Assembly (NCBI GenBank): GCA_945892755.1 | Contig: CAMDDO010000004.1 | Span: 67,099 to 116,542 of the forward strand | Length of the DNA: 49,444 bases | From: Rhizobium sp. Q54 | Lineage (GTDB): Bacteria; Pseudomonadota; Alphaproteobacteria; UBA828 | Reading direction: 5' to 3' | Shown: positions 13,368-34,291 of the stretch, in pieces | Position numbering within the stretch: position 1 is the first letter of the stretch | How the letters are laid out: every line of letters starts with the position of its first letter | Translations under genes and position numbers: made by a program | The notes under the pieces: model-generated | Seen by the model: the letters and a program-made list of their open reading frames with translations, nothing else | Database searches by the model: none | Told to the model about the DNA's origin: nothing

Positions 13368-13374
13368 CAGGCGC

Positions 13375-16309: not shown

Positions 16310-16329
16310 GAAAAGGAGAGGATACGCTT

Positions 16330-16968
16330 ATGTCCGACACCTATAAGGCGATCGGCTTTGACGCCAACCGCGTCGGCTTCGGCGAACGGCCGGGCATCGC
16401 GGTGGTCGATTTCCAGAAGGGCTTTACGCTGCCGGAATTCGCGCTTGGCGGTCGCCTTTTGGTCGAGCGCGCGGTCGAAAACAGCGCGCGCCTCCTGAAA
16501 GCCGCGCGTGCCGCCAATCTGCCGGTCGCGACCTGCTACACCGCCTATACCTCGCAGCGCGACATGCCGCATTGGAAGATCGCGCCGGTCTTGAAGGACT
16601 TTATCCACGGCCATCCTTCGACCGAGCTCGACGAGCGCATCTATGTGAAGGGCTATGACACCGTTTTCTGCAAGACCGGTCCGTCGATCTTTTTCCAGAC
16701 CGCGATTACCTCGTTCTTCGTCAAGGAGCGCGTCGATACCGTGATCGTGATCGGTTGCAACACATCCGGTTGCGTACGCGCCTCGATCAACGATGCGTTC
16801 TCGTTCGGCTATCGCGTGATCGTGCCGGAACCCTGCGTGGGCGATGTGGAAGAGGGCCCCCACAACGACAATCTGCGCGATGTCGGGCGGCGCTATGCCG
16901 ATGTCGTGGGGCTCGACGAGGTACTCGACTACATCGAGCAAATCCGGCGCCGCAACGCGCCGAGCTGA
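16330..16968 (+). CDS. Isochorismatase-fold cysteine hydrolase (N-carbamoylsarcosine amidase-like), copy 2
   Basis: A 212-residue homologue of the gene at 11646. Catalytic residues can be read as Asp27 (GIAVVDFQKGF), Lys116 (FCKTGPSIFFQT) and Cys148 (VIGCNTSGCVRASIND). ATG 16330 is chosen because AAAAGGAGAGG lies 9-15 bases upstream; the frame is open further upstream but only inside the regulator gene. Expected to hydrolyse the ureido group of an N-carbamoyl compound to amine, CO2 and ammonia. The stop codon is immediately followed, with no spacer, by the stop of the convergent helix-turn-helix gene. Confidence 0.88.
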   Translation: MSDTYKAIGFDANRVGFGERPGIAVVDFQKGFTLPEFALGGRLLVERAVENSARLLKAARAANLPVATCYTAYTSQRDMPHWKIAPVLKDFIHGHPSTELDERIYVKGYDTVFCKTGPSIFFQTAITSFFVKERVDTVIVIGCNTSGCVRASINDAFSFGYRVIVPEPCVGDVEEGPHNDNLRDVGRRYADVVGLDEVLDYIEQIRRRNAPS

Positions 16969-17766
16969 TCAATCGCCTTCGAGCCGCCGCATCACCCGAG
17001 TGAAGAGGCCTTGATTGGCGGCCGCGCGCTCCTTGGCGAGGCGGTCGGCCTCGGTCAACCGCTCCAGGAGCCCCAGCGCGCGTTCAAGCGTCGCCTCGCG
17101 GCGTGAGATCAGGGCGGTGCTCGCCGCCTTGTCCTCGACCATCACTTGAAGCTTGGCGGTCGCTTCCGCCAACATGGTCTCGAGCTTGAGCCGCGTCTCT
17201 CGTTCGATCGCGAAACGCTGGGCCGTTGAATCGAGCAGCACGAGCGCTCGGTCGAGCGTGGCGAGCGCAGCGCGATGGCTCTTATCTTCCGCGGCGAGCC
17301 GGGCCAGCGCCTGCTCAAGCTGTTCGAGCGTGCGCGCAAGCAAGGCGCTCAGCCTCTTGCCCTCGCTTTCGCTCGAGGTGGCGCGGGCCAGCGCGGCGTC
17401 GCGTTCGGCCTGCGCCTGGTTGAGCTCCCTGACGGCCCGATCGAGCGCGGTCTGCTGGCGTTCGGCCAAGGCATCAAGACGGTTCACTCTTTCCTCGCGC
17501 TCGCCAAGCGTGTCTCTCAGCTCGAGGATTTCGTCGACCAACAGGTCGACCGCATCGCTCTCCGACAATTCGGTGCCGGCCTCGGCCGCAAGCCGCTCCC
17601 GGCTTTGCAAGGGCGGCACGATTCGCCAGTGGCCGCGATTGTCACGAAAGCCGCGCAATTGGCCCGAACGAACATACTGGCGCACGCGCACCGTGCTGAT
17701 GCCAAGTCGCTCTGCGGCCTCACGCACGCTCAACGGCGCTTCGGGCACGGACTCACCTGTCGTCAT
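16969..17766 (-). CDS. Helix-turn-helix protein with long coiled coil
   Basis: A 265-residue protein with an N-terminal excisionase/MerR-like DNA-binding domain (about residues 12-50: LSVREAAERLGISTVRVRQY, then RGHWRIVPP) and a long, nearly uninterrupted heptad-rich helix from about residue 55 to 255 with many Leu, Glu, Arg and Ala. The layout resembles KfrA-type or other coiled-coil nucleoid/plasmid DNA-binding proteins, but I cannot assign it to a named family. It is the only minus-strand gene inside the catabolic island and ends head-to-head at the stop of the cysteine hydrolase gene. It is divergent from the dihydropyrimidinase gene across a 209-base gap, so it could regulate that gene; this is inference from position. 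Confidence 0.75.
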   Translation of the reverse strand: MTTGESVPEAPLSVREAAERLGISTVRVRQYVRSGQLRGFRDNRGHWRIVPPLQSRERLAAEAGTELSESDAVDLLVDEILELRDTLGEREERVNRLDALAERQQTALDRAVRELNQAQAERDAALARATSSESEGKRLSALLARTLEQLEQALARLAAEDKSHRAALATLDRALVLLDSTAQRFAIERETRLKLETMLAEATAKLQVMVEDKAASTALISRREATLERALGLLERLTEADRLAKERAAANQGLFTRVMRRLEGD

Positions 17767-17975
17767 GGTTTCCTAGGATCTCGAAAAACGTGGGCCGCGC
17801 AAATTGGCCCAATGCGATTCCGGACGCAAGGGTAGTGCGCCGGCGGGCCTGGTGCCAAGTCCCCCATGGGTCGGGCGGTGCGACGCCGCCGCAAGCTCGC
17901 CGTTGGCGTGCTAGCGATCGCTGGGATTCGCCTCACGACCTGATAGGCTTGCCGTGAAACAAAGGGGGCTTTGCC

Positions 17976-19346
17976 ATGGACCTGATCCTGCGCAACGGTA
18001 CGGTGGTTACAGCGGCAGAAACCTACAAGGCCGATCTCGGCATCGAGGGCGGCACAATCAAACAGATCGGCACGGGGCTCGGCCCCGCCAAACGCGAGCT
18101 CGACGTCGCCGGAAAATATCTGTTCCCCGGCGGTGTCGACGTGCACACCCATGTCGAGTTCACTTTGCTCGGTGAAACCACGGTCGATGACTTTCACTCC
18201 TCGACCATCATGGCGGCGTGCGGCGGCATCACCACCATCGTCGATTATGTCCTACCCAATCCCGGCCAGTTGCTGATCGACGCGGTCGAGATGTGGAACG
18301 GCCGCGCCAAGGGCAAGACCGTGATCGATTACGGTCTGCATCCGACGCTGTTCAAGCCGACCGAGCGCACGCGGGGCGAAATGGCCGAGCTCGCGAGCGA
18401 TGGCTATACCAGCTTCAAGATCTTCATGACCGGGCTCGCCGAGTTCGATCATTACGCGCCCGACTATTTGAAGGCGATGGCGCAGGCCGGCAAGAGCGGC
18501 GCGATGATCAACATCCATTGCGAGGATCAGTGCTGCATCACCTTCTTGACCGAGCAGCTCGAGCGCGAAGGCAAAAATAATGTGCGCCACTTCGCCGAGT
18601 CGCGACCGCGCATCGCCGAGGGCATCGCGGCCAAGCGCGCGGTTGATATGGCGCTCTTGGCGGACGCGCCGGTCTATCTCGTGCATTTGTCGTGCGAAGA
18701 AGGGCTCGACGCGCTAAACGATGCCCGCGCGCGCGGCCAGGCGGCCTATGGCGAAACCCGGCCGATCTACCTTCACCTCTCGAAGGATCGCTTCAAGGAC
18801 GAGAAAGATCCAGAGCGTTATGTCGGCTGGCCGCCGCTGCGCGATGCCGATCAAATGGAAGTGCTCTGGCAGGCGCTTGATTCTGGCGTGCTGCAAACTC
18901 TCGCGACCGACCACACCAGCTTCTCGATGGCGCAAAAGAAGAAGCACAAAAAGGTCGAGGATTTGGTGCCCGGCATGTCGGCGCTGGAGACCATGCTGCC
19001 CATGCTCTATTCGGAGGGCGTGCTCAAGAACCGGCTGAAACTCAGCCGTTTCGTCGACGTCACCGCGACCGCGCCAGCCAAGCTCTTTGGCCTCTACCCG
19101 CAAAAGGGCACGATCGCAATCGGCTCGGACGCCGACATTCTCGTGTTTGACCCGAAGAAGCCCGTCACCATTCGCCAGAAGGACCTCCATTCGCGCCAGG
19201 ACTGGGAATTGTTCGAGGGCTTCAAGGTCACGGGTTGGCCATCCATGACGATTTCACGCGGCGAAATCATCGTCGAGAACGGCAAGTTCCTGGGTGAAGC
19301 CGGGCGCGGCAAACTGATCAAGCGCAAGACCTTCACCTCGCCTTGA
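17976..19346 (+). CDS. Dihydropyrimidinase / D-hydantoinase
   Basis: Cytoplasmic zinc amidohydrolase of 456 residues. All metal ligands expected for the family can be read: His57 and His59 (VDVHTHVEF), the carbamylated Lys148 (SFKIFM), His181 (NIHCEDQ), His237 (LVHLSCEEG) and Asp312 (ATDHTSF). It opens dihydrouracil, dihydrothymine or 5-substituted hydantoin rings to the N-carbamoyl amino acid, the substrate type of the two cysteine hydrolases in the same island. The start is preceded by caaagggggctttgcc. Adjacent to the SMP-30-like gene 36 bases downstream. Substrate within the hydantoinase/allantoinase class is inferred; the HxH-K-H-H-D set and length favour dihydropyrimidinase over allantoinase. 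Confidence 0.92.
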   Translation: MDLILRNGTVVTAAETYKADLGIEGGTIKQIGTGLGPAKRELDVAGKYLFPGGVDVHTHVEFTLLGETTVDDFHSSTIMAACGGITTIVDYVLPNPGQLLIDAVEMWNGRAKGKTVIDYGLHPTLFKPTERTRGEMAELASDGYTSFKIFMTGLAEFDHYAPDYLKAMAQAGKSGAMINIHCEDQCCITFLTEQLEREGKNNVRHFAESRPRIAEGIAAKRAVDMALLADAPVYLVHLSCEEGLDALNDARARGQAAYGETRPIYLHLSKDRFKDEKDPERYVGWPPLRDADQMEVLWQALDSGVLQTLATDHTSFSMAQKKKHKKVEDLVPGMSALETMLPMLYSEGVLKNRLKLSRFVDVTATAPAKLFGLYPQKGTIAIGSDADILVFDPKKPVTIRQKDLHSRQDWELFEGFKVTGWPSMTISRGEIIVENGKFLGEAGRGKLIKRKTFTSP

Positions 19347-19382
19347 GCCGCCGGCACGGACAATCATGAGGGAGACAACGCC

Positions 19383-20297
19383 ATGGCGCTGATCGGCGAA
19401 TGCTTCGAATATATCGACAAGCGGTTCTTCAGCCTGACCGTGCCGAGCGGCTTTCTCGACAAACATCATGAGGGTTGCCGCTGGGCCGAAGGGCCGGTCT
19501 GGTTCGCCGATGGCGGCTATCTCGTCTGGAGCGACATTCCGAACAACCGCATGCTGCGCTGGACGCCCGAAGGCGTTGGCGTTTTTCGCGCCAATGCCAA
19601 TTACGCGAACGGCAATACGCGCGACCGCGAAGGCCGGCTGGTCACTTGCGAGCATGGCGGCAGGCGCGTCACCCGCACCGAGCCCGATGGCTCGATCACC
19701 GTGCTCGCCGACAAATACAGGGGCAAGAAGCTCAACTCACCGAACGACGTGGTGGTGAAGTCCGACGGCTCGGTTTGGTTCACCGATCCCGATTACGGCA
19801 TCATGAGCGACTATGAGGGCTTCAAGGCACCGCGCGAGCAGGCGGGTTGTTATGTCTATCGCGTCGATCCGAAGAGCGGCGCGGTCAGCGTGGTGGCCGA
19901 CGATTTCGTCAAGCCCAATGGGCTCGCCTTCTCGCCCGACGAAAAAACGCTCTACATCGCGGATTCGGGCGTCACGCACGATCCGGCCTGGCCGCATCAC
20001 ATTCGCGCGTTCGACGTGGTGAACGGCAAGCAACTCAAGAAATCGCGCGTCTTCGCGGTGATCGAGAACGCCTTTCCCGATGGCTTCCGCGTCGATAGCG
20101 AGGGTCATGTCTGGACCAGCTCGGGCCCCGCGGTCGCCTGCTACCACCCCGATGGCACGCTGCTCGGCCGCGTCAAGATTCCTGAATTCGTCTCGAACCT
20201 CACCTTCGGCGGCGAGCGCCGCAACCGACTCTTCATCACCGCGACCACCTCGCTTTACTCCGTCTATGTCGGCGCGCGCGGTGCGCAAATGCCGTAA
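19383..20297 (+). CDS. SMP-30/gluconolactonase/LRE family protein
   Basis: Six-bladed beta-propeller hydrolase of 304 residues, no signal peptide. Motifs: EGPVWFADGGYLVWSDIPNN, NSPNDVVVKSDGSVWFTDPD with YGI, KPNGLAFSPDEKTLYIADSG, and FPDGFRVDSEGHVWTSSGP. The Glu of EGP and the Asn/Asp of SPND and YIADSG are the usual metal-binding positions. Family members hydrolyse sugar lactones or related esters. The start ATG at 19383 follows atgagggagacaacgcc. As the last gene of the catabolic island it may clear a lactone derived from the transported compound; the actual substrate is unknown. Confidence 0.88.
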   Translation: MALIGECFEYIDKRFFSLTVPSGFLDKHHEGCRWAEGPVWFADGGYLVWSDIPNNRMLRWTPEGVGVFRANANYANGNTRDREGRLVTCEHGGRRVTRTEPDGSITVLADKYRGKKLNSPNDVVVKSDGSVWFTDPDYGIMSDYEGFKAPREQAGCYVYRVDPKSGAVSVVADDFVKPNGLAFSPDEKTLYIADSGVTHDPAWPHHIRAFDVVNGKQLKKSRVFAVIENAFPDGFRVDSEGHVWTSSGPAVACYHPDGTLLGRVKIPEFVSNLTFGGERRNRLFITATTSLYSVYVGARGAQMP

Positions 20298-20334
20298 CGG
20301 CCGTGGGCCAAAGCCGAGGCGTGCCCGTTCCTGT

Positions 20335-20373
20335 CCCGATCTTAACCAATATGCGCTGAAAGCGCACATCGGG
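20335..20373. other. Nested inverted repeat after the SMP-30-like gene
   Basis: CCCGAT pairs with ATCGGG and, inside it, TGCGCT(GAA)AGCGCA forms a tight hairpin. No T-tract follows, so it may be a Rho-dependent end, a protected 3' end or a leader element for the repetitive-protein region. Confidence 0.35.
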
Positions 20374-20495
20374 ATGTATATGATTAACCACGGGACCCAA
20401 TTGTGTCGCACTCTTTGGCTCGGCAGAATGGCCGAGACTTTAGCAGGGCCGACGCGACTGTCGCGGCGCCCGTTGGGCTTTGAATTGAACGGCGG

Positions 20496-22814
20496 ATGTG
20501 GCCCGGGCCACGACGCTCAATAAGAGGGAACGGCAACGCGGCGGCGGACGACAGCGCGGCGGCGGATGGCGCGGCGGCGGCGGACGAAAGCGCGGCGGCC
20601 AATAACGGCAACGCGGCGGCGGACGACAGCGCGGCGGCGGATACCGCGGCGGCGGCGGACGACAGCGCGGCGACCGGCCTGGGCGACGCCAATGCCGGCA
20701 ATTCGGATGCGAATGGCTCGAACTCGGCGTCGACCAATATCGGCGACGCGACCTCGAACGAGCTCGACGCCGATGGCGATGCCTCGGCGGCGGCGCAGAA
20801 CGGCGATGCGATCGGCGGTGCCCATGCGAGCGGCGATTCGGCGGCGGCGGCCAATGGCAGCACGGCGCTGCGCTCGAGCGGCGACAGCGCGCTGTCCCAG
20901 ACCGGCGACGCGATCGGCGGCGACAACGATGACAGCGCGATTGCCGGCAGCGGCATCGCGGTCCGCGTTGGCAGCAACAATGACGGCACGGCCCTTTCGG
21001 GCAATGACGCCGTTGGCATGGACGGCTCGGACGACAACACGATCGCCCAGGGCGGCAGCAGCGCGATCGGCGATGACGCGGAAGGCTCGGCGATCGGCGC
21101 CGGCGCGGTCGGCATGGACGATTCGGACGACAACGCGATCGCGACGGGCGCGAGCACGGCGGTCCGCTTCGGCCAGAAGAGCGATGGCAATGCGGTCGGC
21201 GAGGGCAATGTCGCGAACGACGGCGATGACAGCGCGGTCGCGGGCGACGGCACGGCAATCCGCTTCGGCCAGAACTCGAACGGCAACAACCTCACCTCGG
21301 GCGCCGGCGCGGTCGGCATCGACGAGGTCGATGAGGGCAGTGCGGTCGCGGTCGGCGGCGGCGACGCGGCCGGGGCCGAGGACAATGACGACAGCGCGGT
21401 GGCGCAGAATGGCGGCACGGCGGTCCGTGGCGGCTCGGAGAGCGCGGTCAACAATGGCAGCGGCTCGGCCCAGCGCATGTCCGGCGGCAATGACGGCGCG
21501 GCCCAGACCGTGACCGGCAACGCCCAGGGCGTCGAAGGCGATGACGGCGTGGCGGCGACCCAGGGCGGCGGCGATGCCTATGGCATCGATGCCGACGACG
21601 ACAATGCGATCGCGGCCGGCGACGGCTCGAACGCCTCCAACATCGGCAACGATAATGACGGCACTGGCGTATCCCAGGGTTCGGGCGATGCCGCCGGCAA
21701 TGACTCGGGCGATGGCGTCGGCCAGAATGGCGGCGCGGGTGCGGAAGACGACAGCGCGGCGGCGGTGAACGGCGATGCCGGCAATGCCAGCGCGAAAGAT
21801 GACAGCGCGGCCGCCGGTATCGGCAACGCGGTCAATCTCGATCTCGACGACGGCTCGATCGGCCTGGCGGCCGGCGATGATTTGCTGAACGGCGGCGACG
21901 GCGCGATCATCCAGCTCTCGATGGTCTCGCTCAACAACGAAGTCAGCTACAGCCCGATCAAGATCAACACCGACCCGAGTATCGATAGCGGCGATAACGA
22001 CAATAGCGGCGGCGAGGGCGGTGACGGCGGGGACGTCGAGACCAAGTCGAAGGACAACTCGTTCAATAATGATGGCGATGAGTCCGGCGATATCGAGCAG
22101 GACGGCAACAAGGCGAAGTCCGGCTCGACCAATAGCGACACCGACGGCGGCGAAGGCGGCAGCGCCAATGGCAATGACGGCGTCGATGGCAATGGCAATG
22201 GCGACTCCGAGGGCGGCACGGCCAACGGCAATGACGGCGTCGATGGCAATAGCGGCGGCGACAGCACGGCGAACGGCAGTGGCAATTCGACCGGCGGTAA
22301 CGGCGGCGCGGGCGGCGGTGGCAATGGCGGAAACGGCGGCGCGGCCGCGTCGGACAACGACGCGACCAGCAATGCCGGCGGCGCGGGCAATGGCTCGGGC
22401 AGCGGCTCTGCCAATGGCGGCGCGGGCAGCTCCGATGGAACCGGCTCGGGCTCGGCCAATGGCGGGGCGGCGGATTCGGATGACGACAGCGGCGCGGCGA
22501 CGCAGACCTCGACCAATTCCGGCTCGACCGGCGCTGGCGGGGCGGGCGGCTCGGCCGACAACTCCAACAGCAACACCGGCTCGGCTGGGGCTGGCGGCAC
22601 GGCCAATGGCGGAACTTCGACCGAGACCAACACGATCAACAACACCAATGGCATCGCGACGGGTGCGATCGGTGCGCTGACGATGACCACGACGGGCGGC
22701 ATCAACACGATGCAGGTGTCGACCGGCATGCTCTCGAACCAGCAGGTCGCGGTGTCGATCAACGCCAACGCGTCCCAGGCCGGCTTCAACAACCTGCCGA
22801 CCGTGGGCCCGTGA
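20496..22814 (+). CDS. Repetitive Gly/Asn/Asp/Ala/Ser-rich protein, copy 1, N-terminally truncated
   Basis: A 772-residue low-complexity protein made of short degenerate units such as DDSAAA, NAVAxG, GGSSAIG and NGNDGVDG, with no Cys that I can see and few aromatics. It is a paralogue of the next gene. The similarity starts at residue 13 here and at residue 114 there, so this copy lacks the signal peptide and about 100 residues. The first 12 residues (MWPGPRRSIRGN) look like chance translation, and no convincing ribosome site precedes the ATG. Two perfect-length 25-residue units (75 bases each) start at 20532 and 20607. The C-terminus has an aliphatic/Asn patch (GGINTMQVSTGML, VAVSINANASQAGF). 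Either a 5'-truncated pseudogene-like duplicate, a recombination donor, or an assembly collapse in repeats. Function unknown; probably a secreted beta-rich structural protein when intact. Confidence 0.6.
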   Translation: MWPGPRRSIRGNGNAAADDSAAADGAAAADESAAANNGNAAADDSAAADTAAAADDSAATGLGDANAGNSDANGSNSASTNIGDATSNELDADGDASAAAQNGDAIGGAHASGDSAAAANGSTALRSSGDSALSQTGDAIGGDNDDSAIAGSGIAVRVGSNNDGTALSGNDAVGMDGSDDNTIAQGGSSAIGDDAEGSAIGAGAVGMDDSDDNAIATGASTAVRFGQKSDGNAVGEGNVANDGDDSAVAGDGTAIRFGQNSNGNNLTSGAGAVGIDEVDEGSAVAVGGGDAAGAEDNDDSAVAQNGGTAVRGGSESAVNNGSGSAQRMSGGNDGAAQTVTGNAQGVEGDDGVAATQGGGDAYGIDADDDNAIAAGDGSNASNIGNDNDGTGVSQGSGDAAGNDSGDGVGQNGGAGAEDDSAAAVNGDAGNASAKDDSAAAGIGNAVNLDLDDGSIGLAAGDDLLNGGDGAIIQLSMVSLNNEVSYSPIKINTDPSIDSGDNDNSGGEGGDGGDVETKSKDNSFNNDGDESGDIEQDGNKAKSGSTNSDTDGGEGGSANGNDGVDGNGNGDSEGGTANGNDGVDGNSGGDSTANGSGNSTGGNGGAGGGGNGGNGGAAASDNDATSNAGGAGNGSGSGSANGGAGSSDGTGSGSANGGAADSDDDSGAATQTSTNSGSTGAGGAGGSADNSNSNTGSAGAGGTANGGTSTETNTINNTNGIATGAIGALTMTTTGGINTMQVSTGMLSNQQVAVSINANASQAGFNNLPTVGP
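20532..20681 (+). repeat. Two 75-base tandem coding repeats in copy 1
   Basis: Units at 20532-20606 and 20607-20681 each encode a 25-residue segment starting GNAAADDSAAAD. The same pair occurs in copy 2 at 23257-23406. Confidence 0.8.
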
Positions 22815-22842
22815 GGCGCACATAACATAGGCCAAGGTCAAG

Positions 22843-22873
22843 GGACCGGCGGGCGCTTCTTGCCCGCCGGTCC
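22843..22873 (+). terminator. Perfect 12-bp hairpin between the two repetitive genes
   Basis: GGACCGGCGGGC, loop of seven (GCTTCTT), GCCCGCCGGTCC. No T-run follows. It lies 29 bases after copy 1 and 45 bases before copy 2, so it could end, attenuate or stabilise the transcript. Confidence 0.55.
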
Positions 22874-22917
22874 GGCGACCCAAAAGACGCCAACACCTTG
22901 AATACGGGAGCGAGACA

Positions 22918-25794
22918 ATGAACAGGATGTTCCTCACGGCGGTATCGGCGATCGCGCTGACCGCCGCTCTATCGGGAGCTGCCTACGCGCAGCAGACCAA
23001 CACGACCGGCGGCGGCAGCGACGTCAACGCGCAGGCGACCGATATTGGCAATGCGCAAGCGAATGACAACGATGTCGAGAGCAACAACGACAACAGCAAT
23101 CTTCAGGACAATTCCGACAAGAGCGTCAACCAGGACAACAGCTTGCTCAAGGACGCGACGATCGAAGTGCCGCTGAATATCGGCTCCGACGGCACGGCGG
23201 CCTCGACCGGCGGCGATGCCTCGGGCGCGCAGGACGACAGCGCGGCGGCCAATGGCGGCAACGCGGCGGCGGACGAGAGCGCGGCGGCCGATGGCGCGGC
23301 GGCGGCGGACGACAGCGCGGCCAGCAACCAAGGCAACGCGGCGTCGGACGATAGCGCGGCGGCCAGCACGGCGGCGGCGGCGGACGATTCGGCGGCGAGC
23401 GGCGCCGGCGATGCCAATGCCGGCAATGCCACGGCCGAAGGCGAGAATAGCGCGGCGAGCAATATCGGCAACGCGACCTCGACCGAGATCGACGCCGATG
23501 GCGATGCCTCGGCGGCCGCCTCGGGCAGCACCCCGGGCGGCGCACCGACCCCGGCGGATATCGGCGAGGGCTTCAGCGCCACCGCCGGCGCAGACGCGAG
23601 CGGCGATTCGGCGGCGGCGGCGAACAACAGCACCGCCCTGCGCTCGAGCGGCGATTCTGCCCTGTCGCAGAGCGGCGATGCGATCGGCGGCGACAATAAT
23701 GACAGCGCGATCGCCGGTGATGGCACGGCGGTGCGCGTCGGCAGCAGGAATGACGGCACGGCCATTTCCGGCAACGACGCGATCGCTCTTTCTGGCAGCA
23801 ACTATCACCACCAGTTTGGCGAAGGCGGCCAGAATAGTCTCGATGGGCCGGAAGGCGGCGGCGGCTCGGACCACAACACGATCGCGCAAGGCGGCAGCAG
23901 CGCGATCGGCAACGAAGCCAACGGCTCGGCGATCGGCGACGGCGCGCTCGGCATGAGCGACTCGGACGAGAACGCGATCGCTACGGGCGCGAGCGGCGCG
24001 GTGCGCTTCGGCCAAAAGAGCGATGGCAACGCGGTCGGCGTGGGCAACACGGCCAATGACGGCGGCGACAGCGCGGTGGCGGGCGCCGGCACGGCGGTTC
24101 GCTTCGGCTCGGAGTCCGACGGCAACAACGTGACCACGGGCGCCCAGGCGATCGGCATCGACGAGGTCGAAGACGGCAGCGCGGTCGCGATCAACAGCCC
24201 AGGCGGTGAGGTCGACCCGCAGGGGCTCGGCGGCGGCAATGCCTCGGGTGCCGAGGACAACGACGACAGCGCGGTGGCGCAGGGCGAAGGCAGCACGGCG
24301 GTCCGTGGCGGCCGGGAGAGCGCGATCAATAATGGCGACGGCTCGGCCCAGCGCATGGGCGGCGGCAATGACGGTGCGGCGCAGGCCGTGAACGGCAATG
24401 CCCAGGCCGTCGAAGGCGATGACGGCGTGGCGGCGACCCAGGGCGGCGGCGATGCCTATGGCATCAATGCCGACGACGGCAACGCGGTCGCGGCCGGCGG
24501 AGGGTCGAACGCTTCCAACATCGCCGCGGGCGGTAAACGACATCACGGGCAGGTCGGCGACGTTACCGGCCTGGGCTCGGAGGGCGGCGGCAATGACGGC
24601 GTCGCGGTCTCGCAGGGCAGCGGCGACGCGGCGGGCAATGACGAAGGCGATGGCGTCGGCCAGAATGGCGGCGCCGGTGCCAGCAATGACAGCGCGGCGG
24701 CTGCCGGCGGCGATGCCGGCAATGCCGGAGCGAAGGATGAGAGCGCGGCGGCCGGTATCGGCAACGCGGTCAATGTCGACGCCGACGACGGCTCGTTCAG
24801 TCCGGCCGCCGGTGGCGACCTGATGAACGATGGAGGCCCGCTGGCCGATCATAACAACGTCATCCAGCTCTCGGCGGTCGCGCTCGGCAATGAGGTGTCC
24901 GACAGCCCGATCAAGATCAACAGCGATCCGAGTATCTCCAGCGGCGAGAACCACAATCACGGCGGCCGCGGCGGGAACGGCGGCGACGTCGAGACCAAGT
25001 CCAAGAACAATGACTTCAACAACGAGGGCGACGATTCGGGCGATATCGAGCAGGACAACAACAGGGCCCGCTCGGGTTCGACCGAGAGCGACACCCAAGG
25101 CGGCAAAGGCGGCAGCGCCAATCGCAATGACGGCGTCGACGGCAATGGCAATGGCGAGTCCGAAGGCGGCACGGCCAATTCCAATGACGGCGTCGATGGC
25201 GATAGCGGCGGCGACAGCGCGGCCGATGCCGGCGGCAATTCGACGGGTGGCGACGGTGGCGCGGGCGGTGCGCCCGGTACCACTGGCGGCACCGGTGGGG
25301 ACGCCGATTCGACGAACACGGCGCAGTCCGCCAAGGCCGGTGACGGCAATGGCAGCGGCAAGGGCACGGCCGATGCCGGCGAAGCCGGGTCCGACGGCGA
25401 AGGCAAGGGCGAGGCCAATGGCGGCAAAGCCAAGTCCGATGACGACAGCGGCGACGCCACCCAGAAGTCGGAGAACGCGGATACCGGCGATACCGGGAAT
25501 GGCGGAAACGGCGGAACGGCCGACAACACCAACACCAATGGTGGCAATGCCGGGGCCGGCGGCAACGCCAATGGCGGCATCTCGAACGAGGACAACGATA
25601 TCCTGAACGAGAACGTGATCGGGACGGCCGACATCGGCGCGTTGAAGATGCTCACCGTCGGTGGCATCAACAACATGCAGATCTTGACCAGCCAGATGGT
25701 CTCGCAGGAGATCGCGGTTTCGATCAACGCGAACGCGGCGCAGGCCGGGTTCAACGGCGGCGGCACGATCGTCACCCCGCCGAGCCCGTTCTGA
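22918..25794 (+). CDS. Secreted repetitive Gly/Asn/Asp/Ala/Ser-rich protein, copy 2, intact
   Basis: A 958-residue exported protein. Residues 1-24 are a clear Sec signal (MNRMFLTAVSAIALTAALSG, cleavage AYA-QQ). The mature protein is a long series of short Gly/Asn/Asp/Ser/Ala units with regularly spaced small hydrophobics (for example SAIAGDGTAVRVGS, GNAVGVGNTAND), a pattern expected of a beta-solenoid or amyloid-like stack. Relative to copy 1 it has four inserted Gly/Pro/His-rich loops, at about 23521-23598, 23800-23875, 24193-24237 and 24523-24593, all at unit borders. The C-terminus (about 40 residues) loses the Gly/Asn units and ends in an aliphatic stretch (GGINNMQILTSQMVSQEIAV, then SINANAAQAGF). 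Ribosome site GGGAGCGAG lies eight bases before the ATG. I know no named family; neighbours suggest a surface fibre subunit. Confidence 0.8.
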   Translation: MNRMFLTAVSAIALTAALSGAAYAQQTNTTGGGSDVNAQATDIGNAQANDNDVESNNDNSNLQDNSDKSVNQDNSLLKDATIEVPLNIGSDGTAASTGGDASGAQDDSAAANGGNAAADESAAADGAAAADDSAASNQGNAASDDSAAASTAAAADDSAASGAGDANAGNATAEGENSAASNIGNATSTEIDADGDASAAASGSTPGGAPTPADIGEGFSATAGADASGDSAAAANNSTALRSSGDSALSQSGDAIGGDNNDSAIAGDGTAVRVGSRNDGTAISGNDAIALSGSNYHHQFGEGGQNSLDGPEGGGGSDHNTIAQGGSSAIGNEANGSAIGDGALGMSDSDENAIATGASGAVRFGQKSDGNAVGVGNTANDGGDSAVAGAGTAVRFGSESDGNNVTTGAQAIGIDEVEDGSAVAINSPGGEVDPQGLGGGNASGAEDNDDSAVAQGEGSTAVRGGRESAINNGDGSAQRMGGGNDGAAQAVNGNAQAVEGDDGVAATQGGGDAYGINADDGNAVAAGGGSNASNIAAGGKRHHGQVGDVTGLGSEGGGNDGVAVSQGSGDAAGNDEGDGVGQNGGAGASNDSAAAAGGDAGNAGAKDESAAAGIGNAVNVDADDGSFSPAAGGDLMNDGGPLADHNNVIQLSAVALGNEVSDSPIKINSDPSISSGENHNHGGRGGNGGDVETKSKNNDFNNEGDDSGDIEQDNNRARSGSTESDTQGGKGGSANRNDGVDGNGNGESEGGTANSNDGVDGDSGGDSAADAGGNSTGGDGGAGGAPGTTGGTGGDADSTNTAQSAKAGDGNGSGKGTADAGEAGSDGEGKGEANGGKAKSDDDSGDATQKSENADTGDTGNGGNGGTADNTNTNGGNAGAGGNANGGISNEDNDILNENVIGTADIGALKMLTVGGINNMQILTSQMVSQEIAVSINANAAQAGFNGGGTIVTPPSPF
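23257..23406 (+). repeat. Two 75-base tandem coding repeats in copy 2
   Basis: Units at 23257-23331 and 23332-23406, encoding GNAAADESAAADGAAAADDS-type and GNAASDDSAAASTAAAADDS-type segments. They match the pair in copy 1 and fix the alignment of the two genes. Confidence 0.8.
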
Positions 25795-25809
25795 GGGCAT
25801 AACCGGGTG

Positions 25810-25831
25810 GGCGGGCGCGCGAGCGCCCGCC
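25810..25831 (+). terminator. GC hairpin after copy 2
   Basis: GGCGGGCG, loop CGCGAG, CGCCCGCC, 15 bases after the stop of copy 2. No T-tract. Confidence 0.45.
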
Positions 25832-25860
25832 GCTTGGCTCCAGTGATTTCGACGAAGCGA

Positions 25861-25913
25861 CGTGGCGACGGGACTGATACCGTCGCCACGAATGCCCGGC
25901 AGGCAAGCCGGGC
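25861..25913 (+). other. Two tandem hairpins in the leader of the small exported protein gene
   Basis: First: CGTGGCGACGG(GACTGATA)CCGTCGCCACG, perfect 11-bp stem, 25861-25890. Second: GCCCGGC(AGGCAA)GCCGGGC, perfect 7-bp stem, 25894-25913. They end 27 bases before the ATG at 25941 and could set the expression ratio between the bulk protein and the downstream genes. Confidence 0.5.
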
Positions 25914-25940
25914 GGTTACAAGACGGGAGATCGGGGTGTC

Positions 25941-26348
25941 ATGAAGACCATTCTCATGGCGGCGGCGGCGCTTTCTTTCCTTGCGGTTACGGCCTACGCA
26001 GTCCAATCGAAGGCGGCGGATGGCGGCGGGCTTGGCGTGGCGGCACCGGTCGAGGCCGATCTGATGGACGTCCTGGTGCAGGAGGATGGCGTTGGCGACG
26101 ACGTGCTTGAGAGCCTGGCGGGCCGCGAGCTGATCGAGCCCGACGAATTGACTCAGATCGCCGCGCCGACCAACAACAACACCTCGACCAACGAGATCGA
26201 ATTGAACGGCGAAGGCTCGTCGCTGGTCACCGGCTTCGTCGCCGGCAATCAGGCCAATAGCGGCGGCATCAACAACCAGATGATCAATTCCGGCAATGGC
26301 GTGAATTTCCAGAACAGCACGGTGATCCAGATCATCGTGGGGGAATGA
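25941..26348 (+). CDS. Small exported Asn-rich protein
   Basis: A 135-residue protein with a Sec signal (MKTILMAAAALSFLAVTAYA, cleavage near AYA-VQ). The mature protein has an acidic stretch (about 38-72, rich in Asp, Glu, Leu) and then a Thr/Asn-rich, strand-like tail from about residue 76: NNNTSTNEIELNGEGSSLV, VAGNQANSGGINNQMINSGN, FQNSTVIQIIVGE. The GGINNQM segment closely resembles GGINNMQ at the end of repetitive copy 2. It could be a minor subunit, nucleator or chaperone of the repetitive proteins. No family recognised. Stop is 37 bases before the C39 peptidase gene. Confidence 0.75.
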   Translation: MKTILMAAAALSFLAVTAYAVQSKAADGGGLGVAAPVEADLMDVLVQEDGVGDDVLESLAGRELIEPDELTQIAAPTNNNTSTNEIELNGEGSSLVTGFVAGNQANSGGINNQMINSGNGVNFQNSTVIQIIVGE

Positions 26349-26385
26349 GCGCGTAGGGATCGGAACGGGTAGGCGGGAGCCGGGC

Positions 26386-27102
26386 ATGGCACTGCTCCGT
26401 CCGTTCGTGCTGGCGGGCCTCGGGCTCGCGCTTGCAATCGCCGCCTGGGGCGTCGCGCCGAGCGGCATGGCCGGCGAGGTCTCGCTCTTCACCGGCGTCG
26501 GCGGCCGCGTCTCGGTGCCGACCGTCAGCATCCGGGAAGGCCGCTTCCAGACCGTCGTCCTGCAGCAATACGACTTCAGCTGCGGCTCGGCCGCGCTGGC
26601 GACGCTTCTGACCTTTCATTACAAGCGGCCGACCACCGAGGCCGATGTCTTCCTCCAGATGTTCAACACGGGCGACCAGGCCAAGATCCAGAAGCTCGGC
26701 TTCTCGCTGCTCGACATGAAGCGCTATCTGGAATCCCGCAAGCTGCGCGCCGACGGCTTCAAGATGGAGTTCGACAAGCTGGCCAAGATCGGCGCGCCGG
26801 CGATCACGCTGGTCAATATCAACGGCTACAATCATTTCGTGGTGTTCAAGGGCTATGAGAACGGCGACGTGGTGGTGGGCGACCCGGCGCTCGGCGTGCG
26901 GGTCTATACGGCGGAAGAGTTCCAGAAAATCTGGAACGGCGTCGCCTTCCTGATCCGCAGCGAGCCGGCGGTCGGGCGCGCGAATTTCAATCTCGATCGC
27001 GATTGGCGGGTGCGGCGCAAGGCGCCGTTCGCGACCGCGATCAGCCGGGATTCGCTGGCCTCGTTCACCGCGCAATTGCCCTTCGCCGCGAACGAATTCT
27101 AG
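26386..27102 (+). CDS. Exported C39-family cysteine peptidase (FapD-like)
   Basis: A 238-residue papain-fold peptidase. An N-terminal hydrophobic segment (FVLAGLGLALAIAAWGVA) indicates export or anchoring at the periplasmic face. The catalytic set is visible: Gln60/61 (oxyanion) and Cys66 in QQYDFSCGSAALATLLTFHY, His150 in INGYNHFVVFKG, Asp166 in VVVGDPALG. Family C39 peptidases cut after Gly-Gly in leader sequences. Most are fused to ABC exporters, but stand-alone exported ones exist, for example FapD of the Pseudomonas Fap amyloid operon. There is no ABC domain here. The two proteins encoded immediately downstream each carry a double-glycine motif, so they are the likely substrates. The start ATG at 26386 follows gggtaggcgggagccgggc. 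Confidence 0.88.
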   Translation: MALLRPFVLAGLGLALAIAAWGVAPSGMAGEVSLFTGVGGRVSVPTVSIREGRFQTVVLQQYDFSCGSAALATLLTFHYKRPTTEADVFLQMFNTGDQAKIQKLGFSLLDMKRYLESRKLRADGFKMEFDKLAKIGAPAITLVNINGYNHFVVFKGYENGDVVVGDPALGVRVYTAEEFQKIWNGVAFLIRSEPAVGRANFNLDRDWRVRRKAPFATAISRDSLASFTAQLPFAANEF

Positions 27103-27113
27103 GGGATAGGACC

Positions 27114-28469
27114 ATGGCAACCAAACCGAGAGACGAGACTTGGCAAGCCGCGCCGTCAGGCGGCGCGTGGCTCAGGCGCGCGGCGCTTCGGGGCGCGGTG
27201 TGCGGCACGGCGGTGGCGGTCGCGGTCGGCGCCATGGCGCCGGCGATCGCCGCGGTCGGCATGGACGAGCGTGGTCTCGACGTGCTGGGCGCGAGCCCGA
27301 TGTCGCGCGGCGAGCTCGACGAGAACCGGGGCGGCTTTTCGCTCGGCGCCTTCAAGATCAATATCGGCGTCAAGATCACCACGACGCTCAACAACGCCGT
27401 GACGCTCCAATCGGTGCTGACCTACAACACCAAGACCAAGATCGCCGAGATGACGTCGAACGTCTCCAAGGCGGTGGCGAAGATCGGCGATGATGACGAC
27501 GACGACGCCTCGACGAGCTCGAACCAGGCCGGCGCGGTCAGCTTCTCCCTGCCGCAATTCAAGCTTTCGAGCCAGAGCGCGCAATTCGAGGCCGACGATC
27601 TGGACAGTGATGACGACGATGACGCGGTGAGTCCGAGCGTGCAGGGCGAGACGGCGGCGCCCAGCAACCCGCCGCCGGTCGTGGTGGCGGAGCTCGAGGA
27701 GCCGGTCGGCGCGGTCGTGCCGAGCGCGACCGAGCCGAGCGACACCGGCAATTCCGGGAACGCTTCGATTGGCGCGCAGGCGATCGGCGAGATCGTCGAG
27801 GTCGCGGATGCCGCGCCGGCGAGCCCGCCAAGCGGGCCCAAGATCAATCTCGACCCGATCATCGATCAGGTCACGCAAGTGGTCGACGCGATCATCGTCG
27901 AGCCGCCAAGTCTGCCGGCGCTCGAGGACGCGACCCAGGTGGTCGACGCGCTGATCATCGAGCCGCCGGTGCTGCCCGATGCCGGCGGCATCGTCGAAGA
28001 GCTCACGCCGGTGGTCGGCACCGTGGAGATCGAGTCGCCGAGCCCGCCGGTCATCGTGCCGGCGGCCGAGCCGCTCGTGATCGATACCGAAAGCATGGCG
28101 GCGCTGGCGGAAATCGTGAGCGAGGCCGGCGCGCCGGGCGAGCTCGAGCCCGCGGCTCAGGCCCAGGACCCAAGCGGCGAGCAGGAGCTCGCGCTCAACG
28201 ATGCCGAGGTTCTGCCCGAAGTGCTGATGACGGCGCTCAGCGGCGGCACCAAGTTCACCTCCGGCGAGACCGAGGTCACGCACCTGATCCAGAACGGCAT
28301 CATGGCCTCGATCCAGAACTCGGCGAACGGCATGACGATCGATCAGAGCGTCGAGATGAGCGTCAGCATCAGCAACTTCAATTCGCTTATCCAGGGTGCG
28401 CTTTCGGACATGAAGGCCAACATGATGAGCACCGAAGTCGCGCGCTTCAACTCATCGCTCGGCAATTGA
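27114..28469 (+). CDS. Exported protein with double-glycine motif, paralogue 1
   Basis: A 451-residue protein starting at the ATG 27114, preceded by aggggatagg; the upstream open frame belongs to the peptidase gene. A long signal/anchor region spans residues 20-47 (LRRAALRGAVCGTAVAVAVG and on). Residues 63-74 are MSRGELDENRGG, which fits the C39 leader rule (M/L)SxxELxxxxGG. After the cut would come FSLGAFKINIGVKITTTLNN, an alternating strand pattern. The centre is acidic (DDDD runs near residues 125 and 165) and then Pro/Glu/Val-rich with two 20-residue units starting TQVVDA (27871 and 27931). The last 70 residues (VTHLIQNGIMASIQNSANGM through VARFNSSLGN) are conserved in the next gene. Function unknown; presumably a processed subunit or assembly factor. 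Confidence 0.78.
   Translation: MATKPRDETWQAAPSGGAWLRRAALRGAVCGTAVAVAVGAMAPAIAAVGMDERGLDVLGASPMSRGELDENRGGFSLGAFKINIGVKITTTLNNAVTLQSVLTYNTKTKIAEMTSNVSKAVAKIGDDDDDDASTSSNQAGAVSFSLPQFKLSSQSAQFEADDLDSDDDDDAVSPSVQGETAAPSNPPPVVVAELEEPVGAVVPSATEPSDTGNSGNASIGAQAIGEIVEVADAAPASPPSGPKINLDPIIDQVTQVVDAIIVEPPSLPALEDATQVVDALIIEPPVLPDAGGIVEELTPVVGTVEIESPSPPVIVPAAEPLVIDTESMAALAEIVSEAGAPGELEPAAQAQDPSGEQELALNDAEVLPEVLMTALSGGTKFTSGETEVTHLIQNGIMASIQNSANGMTIDQSVEMSVSISNFNSLIQGALSDMKANMMSTEVARFNSSLGN
27868..27990 (+). repeat. Two 60-base direct coding repeats
   Basis: Units near 27871 and 27931 encode TQVVDAIIVEPPSLPALEDA and TQVVDALIIEPPVLPDAGGI. They form part of the Pro/Glu/Val linker. Confidence 0.6.
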
Positions 28470-28476
28470 GTTCGCA

Positions 28477-28514
28477 CCAGGTCTCGAGGATCGGTTCCGA
28501 TCGTCGAGACCTGG
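28477..28514 (+). terminator. 18-bp hairpin after paralogue 1
   Basis: CCAGGTCTCGAGGATCGG, loop TT, CCGATCGTCGAGACCTGG with a single mismatch. It starts eight bases after the stop. A related hairpin follows paralogue 2 at 30073, so the terminator was duplicated with the gene. Confidence 0.65.
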
Positions 28515-28762
28515 CCGCAGAACGGCCCCGTCTCACATTATTGATCGTCCCCTGCGGTTGTGCCCGCGCGTCGGTCGAGCCGCGCGGGTGACGGCCGAGC
28601 ACGCGGCTCGCTCGAACGCGTTTGTCGCGCTGCCAATACGTCTTGTCACAGATTAATAGTTAGAGTTTCTCACCAATTTGGCTCGCGCGCCGCGTTTCGC
28701 CCAATTCGCGACACAATCGGTCCTCAAAGTCCGCCCCAACAATCAATGAAGGGGACGGGGAC

Positions 28763-30070
28763 ATGAGCGCACCTACCGATCGCGACACGGCAACGGGGCG
28801 AACCTCTCAAACCCAGACTGCATTACGGATGGCGCGAGCCTCGCGCCCGATGCGCCGGGGCGCCATCAGCCTCGGCGCGGTCGCAATCGCGCTCGGCATC
28901 GCAGCGCCCGGCTCGTTCGCCGCGGTCGCGCCCACCGAGCTCGACGTCGGTGACGCCGTGCTGATGTCGCGAGACGAATTGGACGGCGCGCGCGGCGGCT
29001 TTTCGGTCGGCACCTTCAATCTCAGTTTCGGCATCAAGATTTCGACCACGATCAACAATGTGCTGACGGTCCAGACCGTGCTGTCGATCGATTCATCGAC
29101 GCTCACCGGCAAGATCACAACGAGCACGACCGCGATCGCGCAAAAGGTCAATGAGACGGTAGACAAGGTCACCGCGACGGTGGCGGCGATCGGCGATAAG
29201 GAAGAGGGCGCGGCAACGAGCGCGAGCACGACCCTGATCGCTTCGGTCGAGCAGCCCCCGGTCGAGCAGCCCGAGAGCGAAAACAGCGAGGTGGCCGCCA
29301 CGCCCAGCGGCGCCGACGGCGAAAGCGTGGTGAGCCAGGCCGGCCCCTCGACGCCTGAGAGTTTCAGCGTCGAGACCGCGCCGAGCAGCGCCAGCGAGCC
29401 GCCGGCGCCCGCGCCGAGCGCCGCGCCCGAGCAGGTGGCCAGCCTCAGCATCACCGTGCCGACGACACCCGAGAGCTTGGGCGCGTCCGACGCCGCAACC
29501 ATCACGATCCCCGACGCGGCCGGGCTCGTGAGCGAAGTTCAGGAGCAGGTCACGCATTCGGAGATCGGCGATTTCCTGCCGAGTCAGACCGAGCCGATCA
29601 GCGTGGTCGAGGCGCCGTTGCAGATCGAGGTCGAGAGCTTGAGCGCGGCGCAGAACCTGGCGCAGACGCCGAGCTTCGAAGCGCCGCCGGTGAGCGAAAC
29701 CATCGTGCTGGCAAGCAACGAGATCACGACCGAAAGCGTCGAGAACACGCCGAGCGGCGAGGTTTTGTCGAACCTCGAGGCCGATCAGGCGACCGGCACT
29801 GGCGTCGTCGGCGAAGCGGGCGCGACCGTGACCGAGATCCCGAACGGCGCGGTCTTCGATCTGGGCGGCACCGTCATCACCCATCAGATCCTGAACGGCA
29901 TTCTCGCCAGCATCCAGAACAGCAACAACGACGTGCAGATCGACCAGACGGTCGAAATGATGGTCGACATCGAGAATTTCGGCTCGACCATCGGCAGCGC
30001 GCAGTCCACGCGCCAAGCTGCCGCGCTGGGTGACGAGGTCGCGCGCTTCAGCTCCAGCCTCGGCGACTAG
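28763..30070 (+). CDS. Exported protein with double-glycine motif, paralogue 2
   Basis: A 435-residue paralogue of the previous gene. Signal/anchor region at about residues 30-53 (RRGAISLGAVAIALGIAAPG, then SFAAVA). MSRDELDGARGG near residues 69-80 again matches the C39 leader pattern, followed by FSVGTFNLSFGIKISTTINN. The centre is Ser/Glu/Pro/Val-rich and disordered-looking, different in detail from paralogue 1. The C-terminal 70 residues are conserved (VITHQILNGILASIQNSNND, DQTVEMMVDIENF, EVARFSSSLGD). ATG 28763 is preceded by GAAGGGGACGGGGAC. A 293-base gap with an AT-rich stretch (28650-28680) separates the paralogues, so this gene may have its own promoter. Function unknown; probable substrate of the C39 peptidase. 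Confidence 0.78.
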   Translation: MSAPTDRDTATGRTSQTQTALRMARASRPMRRGAISLGAVAIALGIAAPGSFAAVAPTELDVGDAVLMSRDELDGARGGFSVGTFNLSFGIKISTTINNVLTVQTVLSIDSSTLTGKITTSTTAIAQKVNETVDKVTATVAAIGDKEEGAATSASTTLIASVEQPPVEQPESENSEVAATPSGADGESVVSQAGPSTPESFSVETAPSSASEPPAPAPSAAPEQVASLSITVPTTPESLGASDAATITIPDAAGLVSEVQEQVTHSEIGDFLPSQTEPISVVEAPLQIEVESLSAAQNLAQTPSFEAPPVSETIVLASNEITTESVENTPSGEVLSNLEADQATGTGVVGEAGATVTEIPNGAVFDLGGTVITHQILNGILASIQNSNNDVQIDQTVEMMVDIENFGSTIGSAQSTRQAAALGDEVARFSSSLGD

Positions 30071-32237: not shown

Positions 32238-32458
32238 GGTCGGCCATCATGTGGTGGCGAAGCGAGCCCGCGGGCTTGCAGCGCGGGGCTGCTAAACCGT
32301 CTCGCCCATCTTTCGCCCGGATGATTGACGAAGGCTTAACGCGGCGGCGTGCCAGGCGCCGCAGTGCGGCCGGGGCTTAACCGTGTTTGGCAAGAGGCCG
32401 GCAAGGATTGGCGGGCAGGCTCAGGGGTGAGGCTGGAAACCAACGAGTTCAGGACCCG

Positions 32459-33829
32459 ATGCCAAGTCCCATCAATCCGAGGCCCGAAACAAGCGCGTCC
32501 GCCCACCCGCTGGAAGCAGCGGCGGTGGGGCGTGGCGCTGGGCGTCGCCGCTTCTGGCGCGATTCCAAGGGCGGCGTGCTGGTGACCTATGGCTTGGCGC
32601 TGCCCGCGCTGCTCGGCTTCGTCGGCGTCGGCGCGGAGACCGGCACGTGGTACGTCGCCAAGCGCGACCTGCAGACCCAGGCGGATGCGGCAGCGATCGC
32701 CGCGGCCTGGCAGGTCGCCTACGAGCAGGACGATCAGGTCATTCCGGTCGCGCTCGGCGAAGCCGTCAGAAACGGCTTCGAAGACACTGACGAGACCGAC
32801 TATACCGTGCTCAACCCGCCGACCAGCGGCCCGAACGCCGGCAATACCAATGCCGTCGAGGTCATCCTGCGCGAGCGGCACAACGCGCTCTTCTCGGTGC
32901 TGGTCGATGCCGAGGGGGCGTCGATCGCGTCGCGCGCCGTGGCCGAAATCGATTCCTCGGGCGAGGCCTGCGCGCTGGCGCTCAATCCGAGCGTGGAAAG
33001 CGCGATGAAAAACACGGGCAATAGCGATCTCAATTCGCCGTCCTGCACGCTGGCGGCCAACTCGAAGGCGCACAACGCGGTGAACTTCGGCGGCAGCGCG
33101 ACGATCAATATCGAATCGGTGTGGAGCGCCGGCGGATTCGTCGATACCACCAATGCCACGCTCGGCAAGCCGGCCAAAACCAATATGTGGCCGATCGACG
33201 ATCCCTATGCCGATGTCGACCCGACGCCGCCCGCCGGGTGCGATATCAACGCCAAACAAAACCTCAACGGCGCGATGACGTACGATCCCGGCGGCGATGG
33301 CAAGATGACCTTCTGCAAGGACATTTCCATCACCAATGGCGCGGCCGTCGATTTCAAGCCGGGCACCTATTACATCAAGGACGCCGATCTCAGCATCCAG
33401 GGCGGCACGGTGACGTGCAGCTTGTGCGAAACCGGCGGCGACGGCGTCACCTTCGTCTTCACCGCGAAGGATCCGGCCAGTACCAGCAATATCGGCTCGA
33501 TCTCGATCAATGGCGGCGCCAGCGTGACGCTCAACGCGCCCTCCGCCGGCGACTATAAGGGGCTGCTGTTCTTTCAGGACCAGGCGGCGCCGAAAGCGTC
33601 GAACAACAAGGCGAGCCTGAATGGCGGCGCCGACACCGTGCTCAATGGCGCGATCTATTTTCCCAACAACGAAGTGCAATGGGCCGGCAATGTCGGCTTG
33701 ACCGCCGCCTGCACCCTGATCGTCGCCGATACGGTGAACTTCACCGGCGATTCGGGCCTCGCGGTCAATGACTGCGCCAATCAGGGCGTCGACATCGCCT
33801 TCGTGCGAAGAATCTTGTTGTCCGAGTAG
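32459..33829 (+). CDS. TadG-like pilus/secretion-associated protein
   Basis: A 456-residue protein with the TadG layout. A short cytoplasmic N-terminus (RRRFWRDSKGGVLVTYGLAL) runs into a single membrane helix (PALLGFVGVGAETGTWYVAK), then RDLQTQADAAAIAAAWQVAY, the signature 'LQxxADAAALAAA' of the Flp pilus-assembly TadE/G family. The large C-terminal part has beta-rich Gly/Asn repeats (INGGASVTLNAP, LNGGADTVLNGAIYFPNNEV) and several Cys in periplasmic loops. I chose ATG 32459 (the frame is open upstream to 32387 without family similarity). First of three genes in a row with two TadE-like genes; no TadA/B/C or pilin gene is in this window. Confidence 0.82.
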   Translation: MPSPINPRPETSASAHPLEAAAVGRGAGRRRFWRDSKGGVLVTYGLALPALLGFVGVGAETGTWYVAKRDLQTQADAAAIAAAWQVAYEQDDQVIPVALGEAVRNGFEDTDETDYTVLNPPTSGPNAGNTNAVEVILRERHNALFSVLVDAEGASIASRAVAEIDSSGEACALALNPSVESAMKNTGNSDLNSPSCTLAANSKAHNAVNFGGSATINIESVWSAGGFVDTTNATLGKPAKTNMWPIDDPYADVDPTPPAGCDINAKQNLNGAMTYDPGGDGKMTFCKDISITNGAAVDFKPGTYYIKDADLSIQGGTVTCSLCETGGDGVTFVFTAKDPASTSNIGSISINGGASVTLNAPSAGDYKGLLFFQDQAAPKASNNKASLNGGADTVLNGAIYFPNNEVQWAGNVGLTAACTLIVADTVNFTGDSGLAVNDCANQGVDIAFVRRILLSE

Positions 33830-33840
33830 GGCGGGAGGTC

Positions 33841-34290
33841 GTGGTGCATCATCTCGCGCGCCTCCGCGCCGATCGCGCCGGCAACGCCGCGATCGAGTTC
33901 GCGCTGATCCTGCCACTGACCGTGCTGATGGTGGCCGGGCTGATCGAATATGGGCTGGTCACCAACGCGCGCACCTCGCTCGAGAACGGCGCGCGTGCCG
34001 GCGCCCAATTCGCGCTGTTCCAGGGCTTCGATGAAGCGGCCATCACGGCCACCGTGGTCGCCGCGACCAACCTCGCGCTGAGCGCGCCGAACGTCGCCGC
34101 CGAGGAGTTCTATGAGTGCGACGGCGCCTGGGGCACCGAGGTGCCGGCAGACACCGAATGCGACGACGGCGCGCCGCTCGCCAAGTTCGTCGGCGTCACC
34201 GCGACCATGGACTACGCGCCGTTCTTTCCGCTGATCGAGCTCGCCTTGCCGAGCGAGCTGGTCGGCTCGGCCGCCGTCAGGGTGCCGTGA
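33841..34290 (+). CDS. TadE-like pseudopilin-family protein 1
   Basis: A 149-residue protein with GTG start at 33841, eleven bases after the TadG-like gene and preceded by gggcgggaggtc. N-terminal motif RADRAGNAAIEFALILPLTV is the TadE signature: a Glu at position +5 of the hydrophobic segment, like type IV prepilins (cleavage after Gly expected by TadV/prepilin peptidase). The rest is a periplasmic domain with a few Cys. Likely a minor pseudopilin of a Tad apparatus encoded elsewhere. Confidence 0.85.
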   Translation: MVHHLARLRADRAGNAAIEFALILPLTVLMVAGLIEYGLVTNARTSLENGARAGAQFALFQGFDEAAITATVVAATNLALSAPNVAAEEFYECDGAWGTEVPADTECDDGAPLAKFVGVTATMDYAPFFPLIELALPSELVGSAAVRVP

Positions 34291-34291
34291 C

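Follow-up and report, generated by a model that had tools for sequence, protein, structure and literature searches.

A divergent Fap-type operon with a FapD-like C39 peptidase and FapE-like double-glycine proteins as a candidate secretion system for surface subunits in an alphaproteobacterium

The stretch of DNA analysed here (the window) comprises 49,444 nucleotides of contig CAMDDO010000004.1 from the assembly of Rhizobium sp. Q54 (GCA_945892755.1), and it holds six contiguous plus-strand genes that we read, with a probability of roughly 70%, as encoding a divergent system of the Fap type that secretes surface subunits. A preliminary description had singled out these genes and their giant repeat proteins, and the open reading frames (ORFs) bear this out as real genes, with a third-position GC content of 0.82-0.89 in all six. 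In order, they encode a giant Gly/Asn/Asp/Ala/Ser-rich subunit (copy 1, 20496-22814, 772 amino acids), a giant exported repeat protein (copy 2, 22918-25794, 958 amino acids), a small exported Asn-rich protein (25941-26348, 135 amino acids), an exported stand-alone C39 cysteine peptidase (26386-27102, 238 amino acids) and 2 FapE-like double-glycine proteins (protein 1, 27114-28469, 451 amino acids; protein 2, 28763-30070, 435 amino acids). The fifth gene is taken to start at the ATG at 27114, since the mechanical TTG start at 27003 would overlap the peptidase gene. Signal peptides were judged by hydropathy only.

The fourth product is, as had been described, a C39 peptidase without an ATP-binding cassette (ABC) domain. 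It matches Pfam Peptidase_C39 (PF03412) at 5e-21 as a stand-alone domain homologous to the solved peptidase domains 6mpz and 4ry2 of peptidase-containing ABC transporters, and its catalytic residues Cys66 (codon at 26581), His150 (26833) and Asp166 (26881) are unchanged across 12 aligned relatives, so that it has the features of FapD, a stand-alone exported C39 peptidase with a Cys/His/Asp triad. The match to the NCBIfam C39_FapD model (3.3e-45, 154 bits) lies under the equivalog cut-off of 330 bits, and that to the model of Acinetobacter FilB (1.8e-37, 129 bits) is also under its curated cut-off. In quick trees containing 18 FapD proteins from FapE-bearing loci, classical FapD forms one clade (Shimodaira-Hasegawa-like approximate likelihood ratio test, SH-aLRT, 98), with the window peptidase outside it, in the other large group beside 2 alphaproteobacterial or unclassified metagenome proteins; the branch leading to FilB is very long. 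By its sequence, then, the peptidase is a FapD homologue that belongs to a diverged lineage within the FapD/FapF family. It is missing from both same-genus genomes, and the distribution of the operon near the source organism is therefore patchy. The trees also show a sister clade (loci L048-L055) whose stand-alone C39 peptidases are found in minimal cassettes, where a short exported protein with an AQMDSVAAGG/VVGG-type leader accompanies the peptidase and a FapF-type barrel, an arrangement like that of the nap island of Neisseria.

The last 2 proteins of the operon are, in agreement with the preliminary description, paralogues (phmmer 8e-31) with double-glycine motifs, which take the form ELxxxRGGF. 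The double-glycine leader is MSRGELDENRGG in protein 1 (27300-27335) and MSRDELDGARGG in protein 2 (28964-28999), with the cut predicted after the second Gly in each. Profiles from which the window was excluded match the N-terminal parts of proteins 1 and 2 (independent E-values, i-E, 1.1e-12 and 2.3e-13) as well as their C-terminal parts (1.3e-9 and 2.1e-8), all shuffled controls scoring above 0.3, and place a C-terminal "IQN" module at residues 384-441 of protein 1 (28263-28436) and 363-426 of protein 2 (29849-30040). For protein 2, AlphaFold predicts a helix at residues 70-76 before the glycines with modest confidence, strands at 85-122 (confident over 85-110), a disordered linker, and then strands at 355-403 and a final helix that are largely confident; a Foldseek search of the double-glycine protein against the PDB returned nothing at E<=0.001.

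The leader recurs in the corresponding proteins of related loci. When the downstream proteins are aligned at the glycine pair, L or M occupies position -5 in 94/94, R position -1 in 92/94, and the pair itself is G-G in 88/94. Because the search profile had RGG seeds, a separate pattern count was made, which found h-x4-[LM]-x3-RG[GA] in 78 of the 96 ORFs that come first downstream, versus 1.9% of shuffles and 2.9% of other ORFs of the loci. The leader of the family can be written as h-x4-[LM]-x3-R-G-G-F. The window conforms to this family arrangement, with a C39 peptidase followed by a protein bearing the pattern. The motif has the spacing known from the double-glycine leaders that C39 peptidases cleave. 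FapF proteins carry the pattern in only 14 of 93 cases, so it is not general among them.

Rouse et al. described FapE as a protein with 2 conserved ends, a disordered linker and an Asn/Gln-rich C-terminal part (PMC5557850). FapD of Pseudomonas is a periplasmic protein whose Cys is required for secretion, and FapE is the sole Fap protein observed to lose its N-terminus (PMC5557850); the target of FapD has been described as unclear, and the Fap proteins are said to be without canonical C39 sites (PMC5557850, PMC6173800). We find that the N-termini of classical FapE carry the same motif ending in RG[RK][YF], for example ELKDSEMAELRGRYVMPGRIISFGI, and profile-profile comparison with hhalign pairs them with those of the present family at 95.5%. 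Because classical FapE carries this matching motif, the leader, and in FapE itself the RG[RK] motif, is on sequence grounds the best candidate for the FapD cleavage site.

The gene set extends far beyond this genome. A scan of 84,980 genomes returned at least 590 relatives, and we read 107 C39 loci, consisting of the best 80 of the scan, 26 from other searches and the window. These come from Alpha-, Beta- and Gammaproteobacteria and Geobacteraceae. The genes do occur together, with a double-glycine protein downstream of the peptidase in 95/107 loci, a FapF-type barrel within the fetched stretch in 100/107 (in many cases on the other strand) and a larger Asn-rich exported protein in 79/107, and a small exported protein usually directly precedes the peptidase. 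Of the other peptidase-bearing genomes of the class that were searched, 11/11 contain FapF. The operon had been proposed to be analogous to, and distinct from, the Fap system. A fap-like operon of a C39 peptidase with secreted subunits is what we find as well, but the relationship is more than analogy, given the FapD match (3e-45) and the presence of the same gene order, together with FapF, in relatives.

The small protein has a C-terminal Asn-rich module (residues 78-132, 26172-26336), which matches a profile of 91 relatives, window excluded, with a weak i-E of 1.7e-3, the best shuffle reaching 0.08; the locus shows the family combination of a small exported protein before the C39 gene and a C-terminal IQNxGNN module, at a modest score. 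In the relatives, the C-terminal consensus is of the type AFxxxxGIxTVIQNSGNNVLIQNATILNV. A leader-like motif, VGDDVLESLAGR, in the GR form, was found by pattern match at 26091-26126, and the corresponding pattern with a GG, GR or AR end, which was defined after looking at the sequences, occurs in 58 of 92 small upstream proteins versus 2.6% of shuffles. The module profile also matches repeats in large subunits (about 30 in a 3063-residue protein of locus L042, 7 each in L039 and L059), subunits of classical Fap operons (L036, L037) and double-glycine proteins at their C-terminal ends, and hhalign shows the three families (large, small and double-glycine) to be related in their C-terminal modules (93.8% and 87.9%). 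The earlier statement that the subunits share no recognisable Fap repeats holds for the giant proteins, which have no NCBIfam match at E<=1, but fails for the small and double-glycine proteins, whose module is the one repeated in large subunits of certain relatives. We regard the small protein as a candidate minor subunit. The L042 protein (10504-19695, minus strand) is itself an extreme case of subunit expansion, an exported protein in the large-subunit position with about 30 repeats of about 74 residues of the GIxxVQQNNGxxNAI type. A match of the small protein to factor-H-binding protein (E 0.004) is far under the cut-off and recurs in 1 of 50 relatives, and we attribute it to chance.

The giant proteins are paralogues with 74% identity, rich in Gly, Asn, Asp, Ala and Ser, and their genes contain tandem repeats of 36, 39, 57 and 75 base pairs. 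Copy 1 had been noted to be without a signal peptide, which is correct, but the loss is larger, as alignment with copy 2 begins only at about residue 112 and the first ~100 residues are gone together with the signal peptide; a remnant of them was sought upstream and none was found. Copy 1 is probably a truncated paralogue or the product of an assembly join. Its abrupt start (20298-20530) could be a deletion or a misjoin between 2 similar giant genes. The ratio of nonsynonymous to synonymous substitution rates (dN/dS) between the copies is 0.44, indicating purifying selection, and both are therefore held under constraint. Two tandem large-protein genes occur also in relatives that have FapF, and the large proteins of relatives are highly variable in sequence and size (198-3063 amino acids), with a FapB match (3e-4) in 1 of 32. 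Copy 2 occupies the place of the relatives' exported Asn-rich protein and is our candidate for the major subunit.

From the homology, the conserved gene set and the conserved motif, we infer how cleavage, export and assembly might proceed. The subunits would cross the inner membrane by Sec, as their signal peptides suggest. In the periplasm, the FapD-like peptidase would recognise the short helical leader h-x4-[LM]-x3-R-G-[G/R] of the 2 FapE-like proteins, and probably that of the small protein as well, and motif, position and partnership suggest that it cuts after the glycine pair, freeing a pro-peptide of about 25 residues. The trimmed FapE-like and small proteins may then prime or nucleate an assembly of which the giant low-complexity proteins, from their position and composition, would be the bulk, and the common C-terminal IQNxGNNxxIQ module is likely an element of assembly or export. 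Export would run through the FapF barrel in relatives; here that barrel would be absent from the assembly, or another channel would take its place. The products are candidate amyloid fibres. A bolder version of this scheme, which we consider rather doubtful, holds that h-x4-[LM]-x3-R-G-[G/R] on exported proteins serves FapD-kind periplasmic C39 peptidases in general as their substrate signal, classical FapE (ELKDSEMAELRG-RY) included, and that in this genome the giant disordered subunits leave by an outer-membrane channel distinct from FapF.

Several observations weigh against a Fap-type system at this locus. The preliminary description had seen no FapF in the window, and this extends to the whole assembly, where neither NF058560, nor the family profile A2 (E<=10), nor PF13557 detects one, though nearly every relative has it. 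The double-glycine proteins of the window miss the NCBIfam FapE model, which 4 of 39 family members reach, at best with 1e-4. RGG[FI] sequences had served as seeds for the first motif profile, which makes its logo in part circular. The giant proteins have no Pfam match, show no Fap repeat recognised by NCBIfam, have no homologue detected in 39 related genomes and are not detected by a profile of the relatives' C-termini; copy 2 is predicted to be disordered (AlphaFold predicted local distance difference test, pLDDT, 31.6), which is a further weak point, and copy 1 is truncated. The absence of FapF and the lost 5' end of copy 1, together with the absence of the peptidase from both same-genus genomes, could mean that the locus is decaying and that its genes are non-functional relics. 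We consider this unlikely, as the six reading frames are uninterrupted and strongly codon-biased, the peptidase retains its catalytic triad, the giant copies evolve under the purifying selection described above, and tandem large-protein genes are found in FapF-bearing relatives too. FapF may moreover sit in an assembly gap, because the source assembly, although rated 100% complete, consists of 117 contigs, and because on the L059 plasmid FapF lies not within 9 kilobases (kb) of the peptidase but ~24 kb away.

What the subunits form is a separate matter. Because the model of copy 2 is structureless and Fap repeats are lacking, the giant proteins might instead make up an acidic, disordered coat, and it is a real, if not the favoured, possibility that Fap-like machinery here serves a surface coat or adhesin of Asn/Gly/Asp-rich proteins, a hydrogel or ion-binding layer with no cross-beta fibre. 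The Asp/Asn/Gly-rich composition of copy 2 and the diversity of the relatives' large proteins would fit such a layer, but the large proteins of L042, L039 and L059 contain many Asn/Gln repeats akin to the small-protein module, which look like amyloid repeats. A further reading, which we think improbable, makes the operon a bacteriocin-like or autolysis-peptide system in which the C39 peptidase frees bioactive peptides from double-glycine precursors; in the Neisseria nap island, GG peptides are indeed coupled to a C39 peptidase and a homologue of FapF (PMC11798529), and the cassettes of the sister clade hold only a short AGG/VGG protein, the C39 peptidase and FapF. In the window, however, the products of 435-451 amino acids share with subunit repeats a conserved C-terminal module, and giant Asn-rich proteins belong to the gene set. 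A divergent Fap-type system for secretion of surface subunits remains the reading that we prefer.

Some features of the surroundings deserve mention. The operon is flanked by a gluconolactonase-family gene on one side and an acyl-CoA dehydrogenase gene on the other. Both double-glycine proteins have Arg-Arg directly before the hydrophobic stretch, WLRRAALRGAV in protein 1 (27114-27260) and PMRRGAISLGAV in protein 2 (28763-28930), and with such long N-termini, export by the twin-arginine (Tat) pathway instead of Sec is possible on sequence. A TadG-like gene and 2 TadE-like pilus genes lie at 32387-34702, 2 kb downstream of the operon, and in one family locus (L047, 12108-14670) TadE/TadG-like genes, assigned by reading, stand directly upstream as well, which might be chance. 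A hidden channel was considered among the Pfam-less ORFs at 34749-39173 and rejected, since the large ORF in that stretch, as judged from codon bias and by reading, runs antisense to an alpha/beta-hydrolase-like and an amidase-like ORF.

Parts of this picture are already known. FapD and FapF were recognised as members of larger families, whose matches Dueholm et al. set aside (PMC3792158), fapD-fapF pairs are known from further phyla (PMC6173800), and a C39 peptidase with a FapF homologue and GG peptides has been described in nap. New, within the literature searched, is a wide gene set in which the protein at the FapE position bears a consensus double-glycine leader that aligns with the N-terminus of classical FapE. 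The family thus supplies partners for the numerous FapD- and FapF-like matches left aside (PMC3792158), and a near-consensus double-glycine leader at the FapE position turns the question of the FapD substrate into a point-mutation test.

Among known systems, curli and RTX have no Pfam or NCBIfam domain that is matched by any of the six proteins. Peptidase-containing ABC transporters (PCAT), which carry out type 1 secretion of double-glycine peptides, share the homologous C39 domain and the double-glycine leader, but the window peptidase is without the ABC part, has its own signal peptide and would act outside the cytoplasm. The nap island of Neisseria gonorrhoeae, with the C39 peptidase NapP, the FapF-like channel NapF and GG peptides (PMC11798529), likewise brings together a C39 peptidase, a FapF-type channel and double-glycine substrates. 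The nap substrates are smaller than 10 kilodaltons and promote autolysis, whereas the proteins of the present family are large, Asn-rich and equipped with a C-terminal module, and the window products of 435 and 451 amino acids are not short cationic GG peptides of the nap type. In the "putative pilus system" Fil of Acinetobacter (NF050078, NF050079), FilB matches the window peptidase and FilC the FapF-type barrels of relatives, but the subunits FilA, FilE and FilF have no recognisable relation to those described here. Directly behind its signal peptide, FilA (L180:5732-6571) opens with SMDDAALSAATGQDG, a leader-like stretch with the same spacing and a GQ end, and by this resemblance Fil may work on the same leader principle.

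Fap itself is represented in NCBIfam by the models NF058557-NF058560 and NF058616. The window differs from it in that its peptidase falls outside the classical FapD clade and its leaders read RGGF in place of RG[RK][YF], and in having giant subunits that are not built of Fap repeats, an extra small leader-bearing subunit and 2 FapE-like genes. FapF is missing from the genome and FapA from the window, where none of the six products has an NCBIfam match to it and there is no further operon gene; fapA is frequently absent from known Fap operons too (PMC3792158). In both systems, exported Asn-rich subunits precede the peptidase. Relatives of the window have the FapF barrel next door, and the double-glycine proteins, although they miss the NCBIfam FapE model, resemble FapE in their position after fapD, their N-terminal motif and their architecture.

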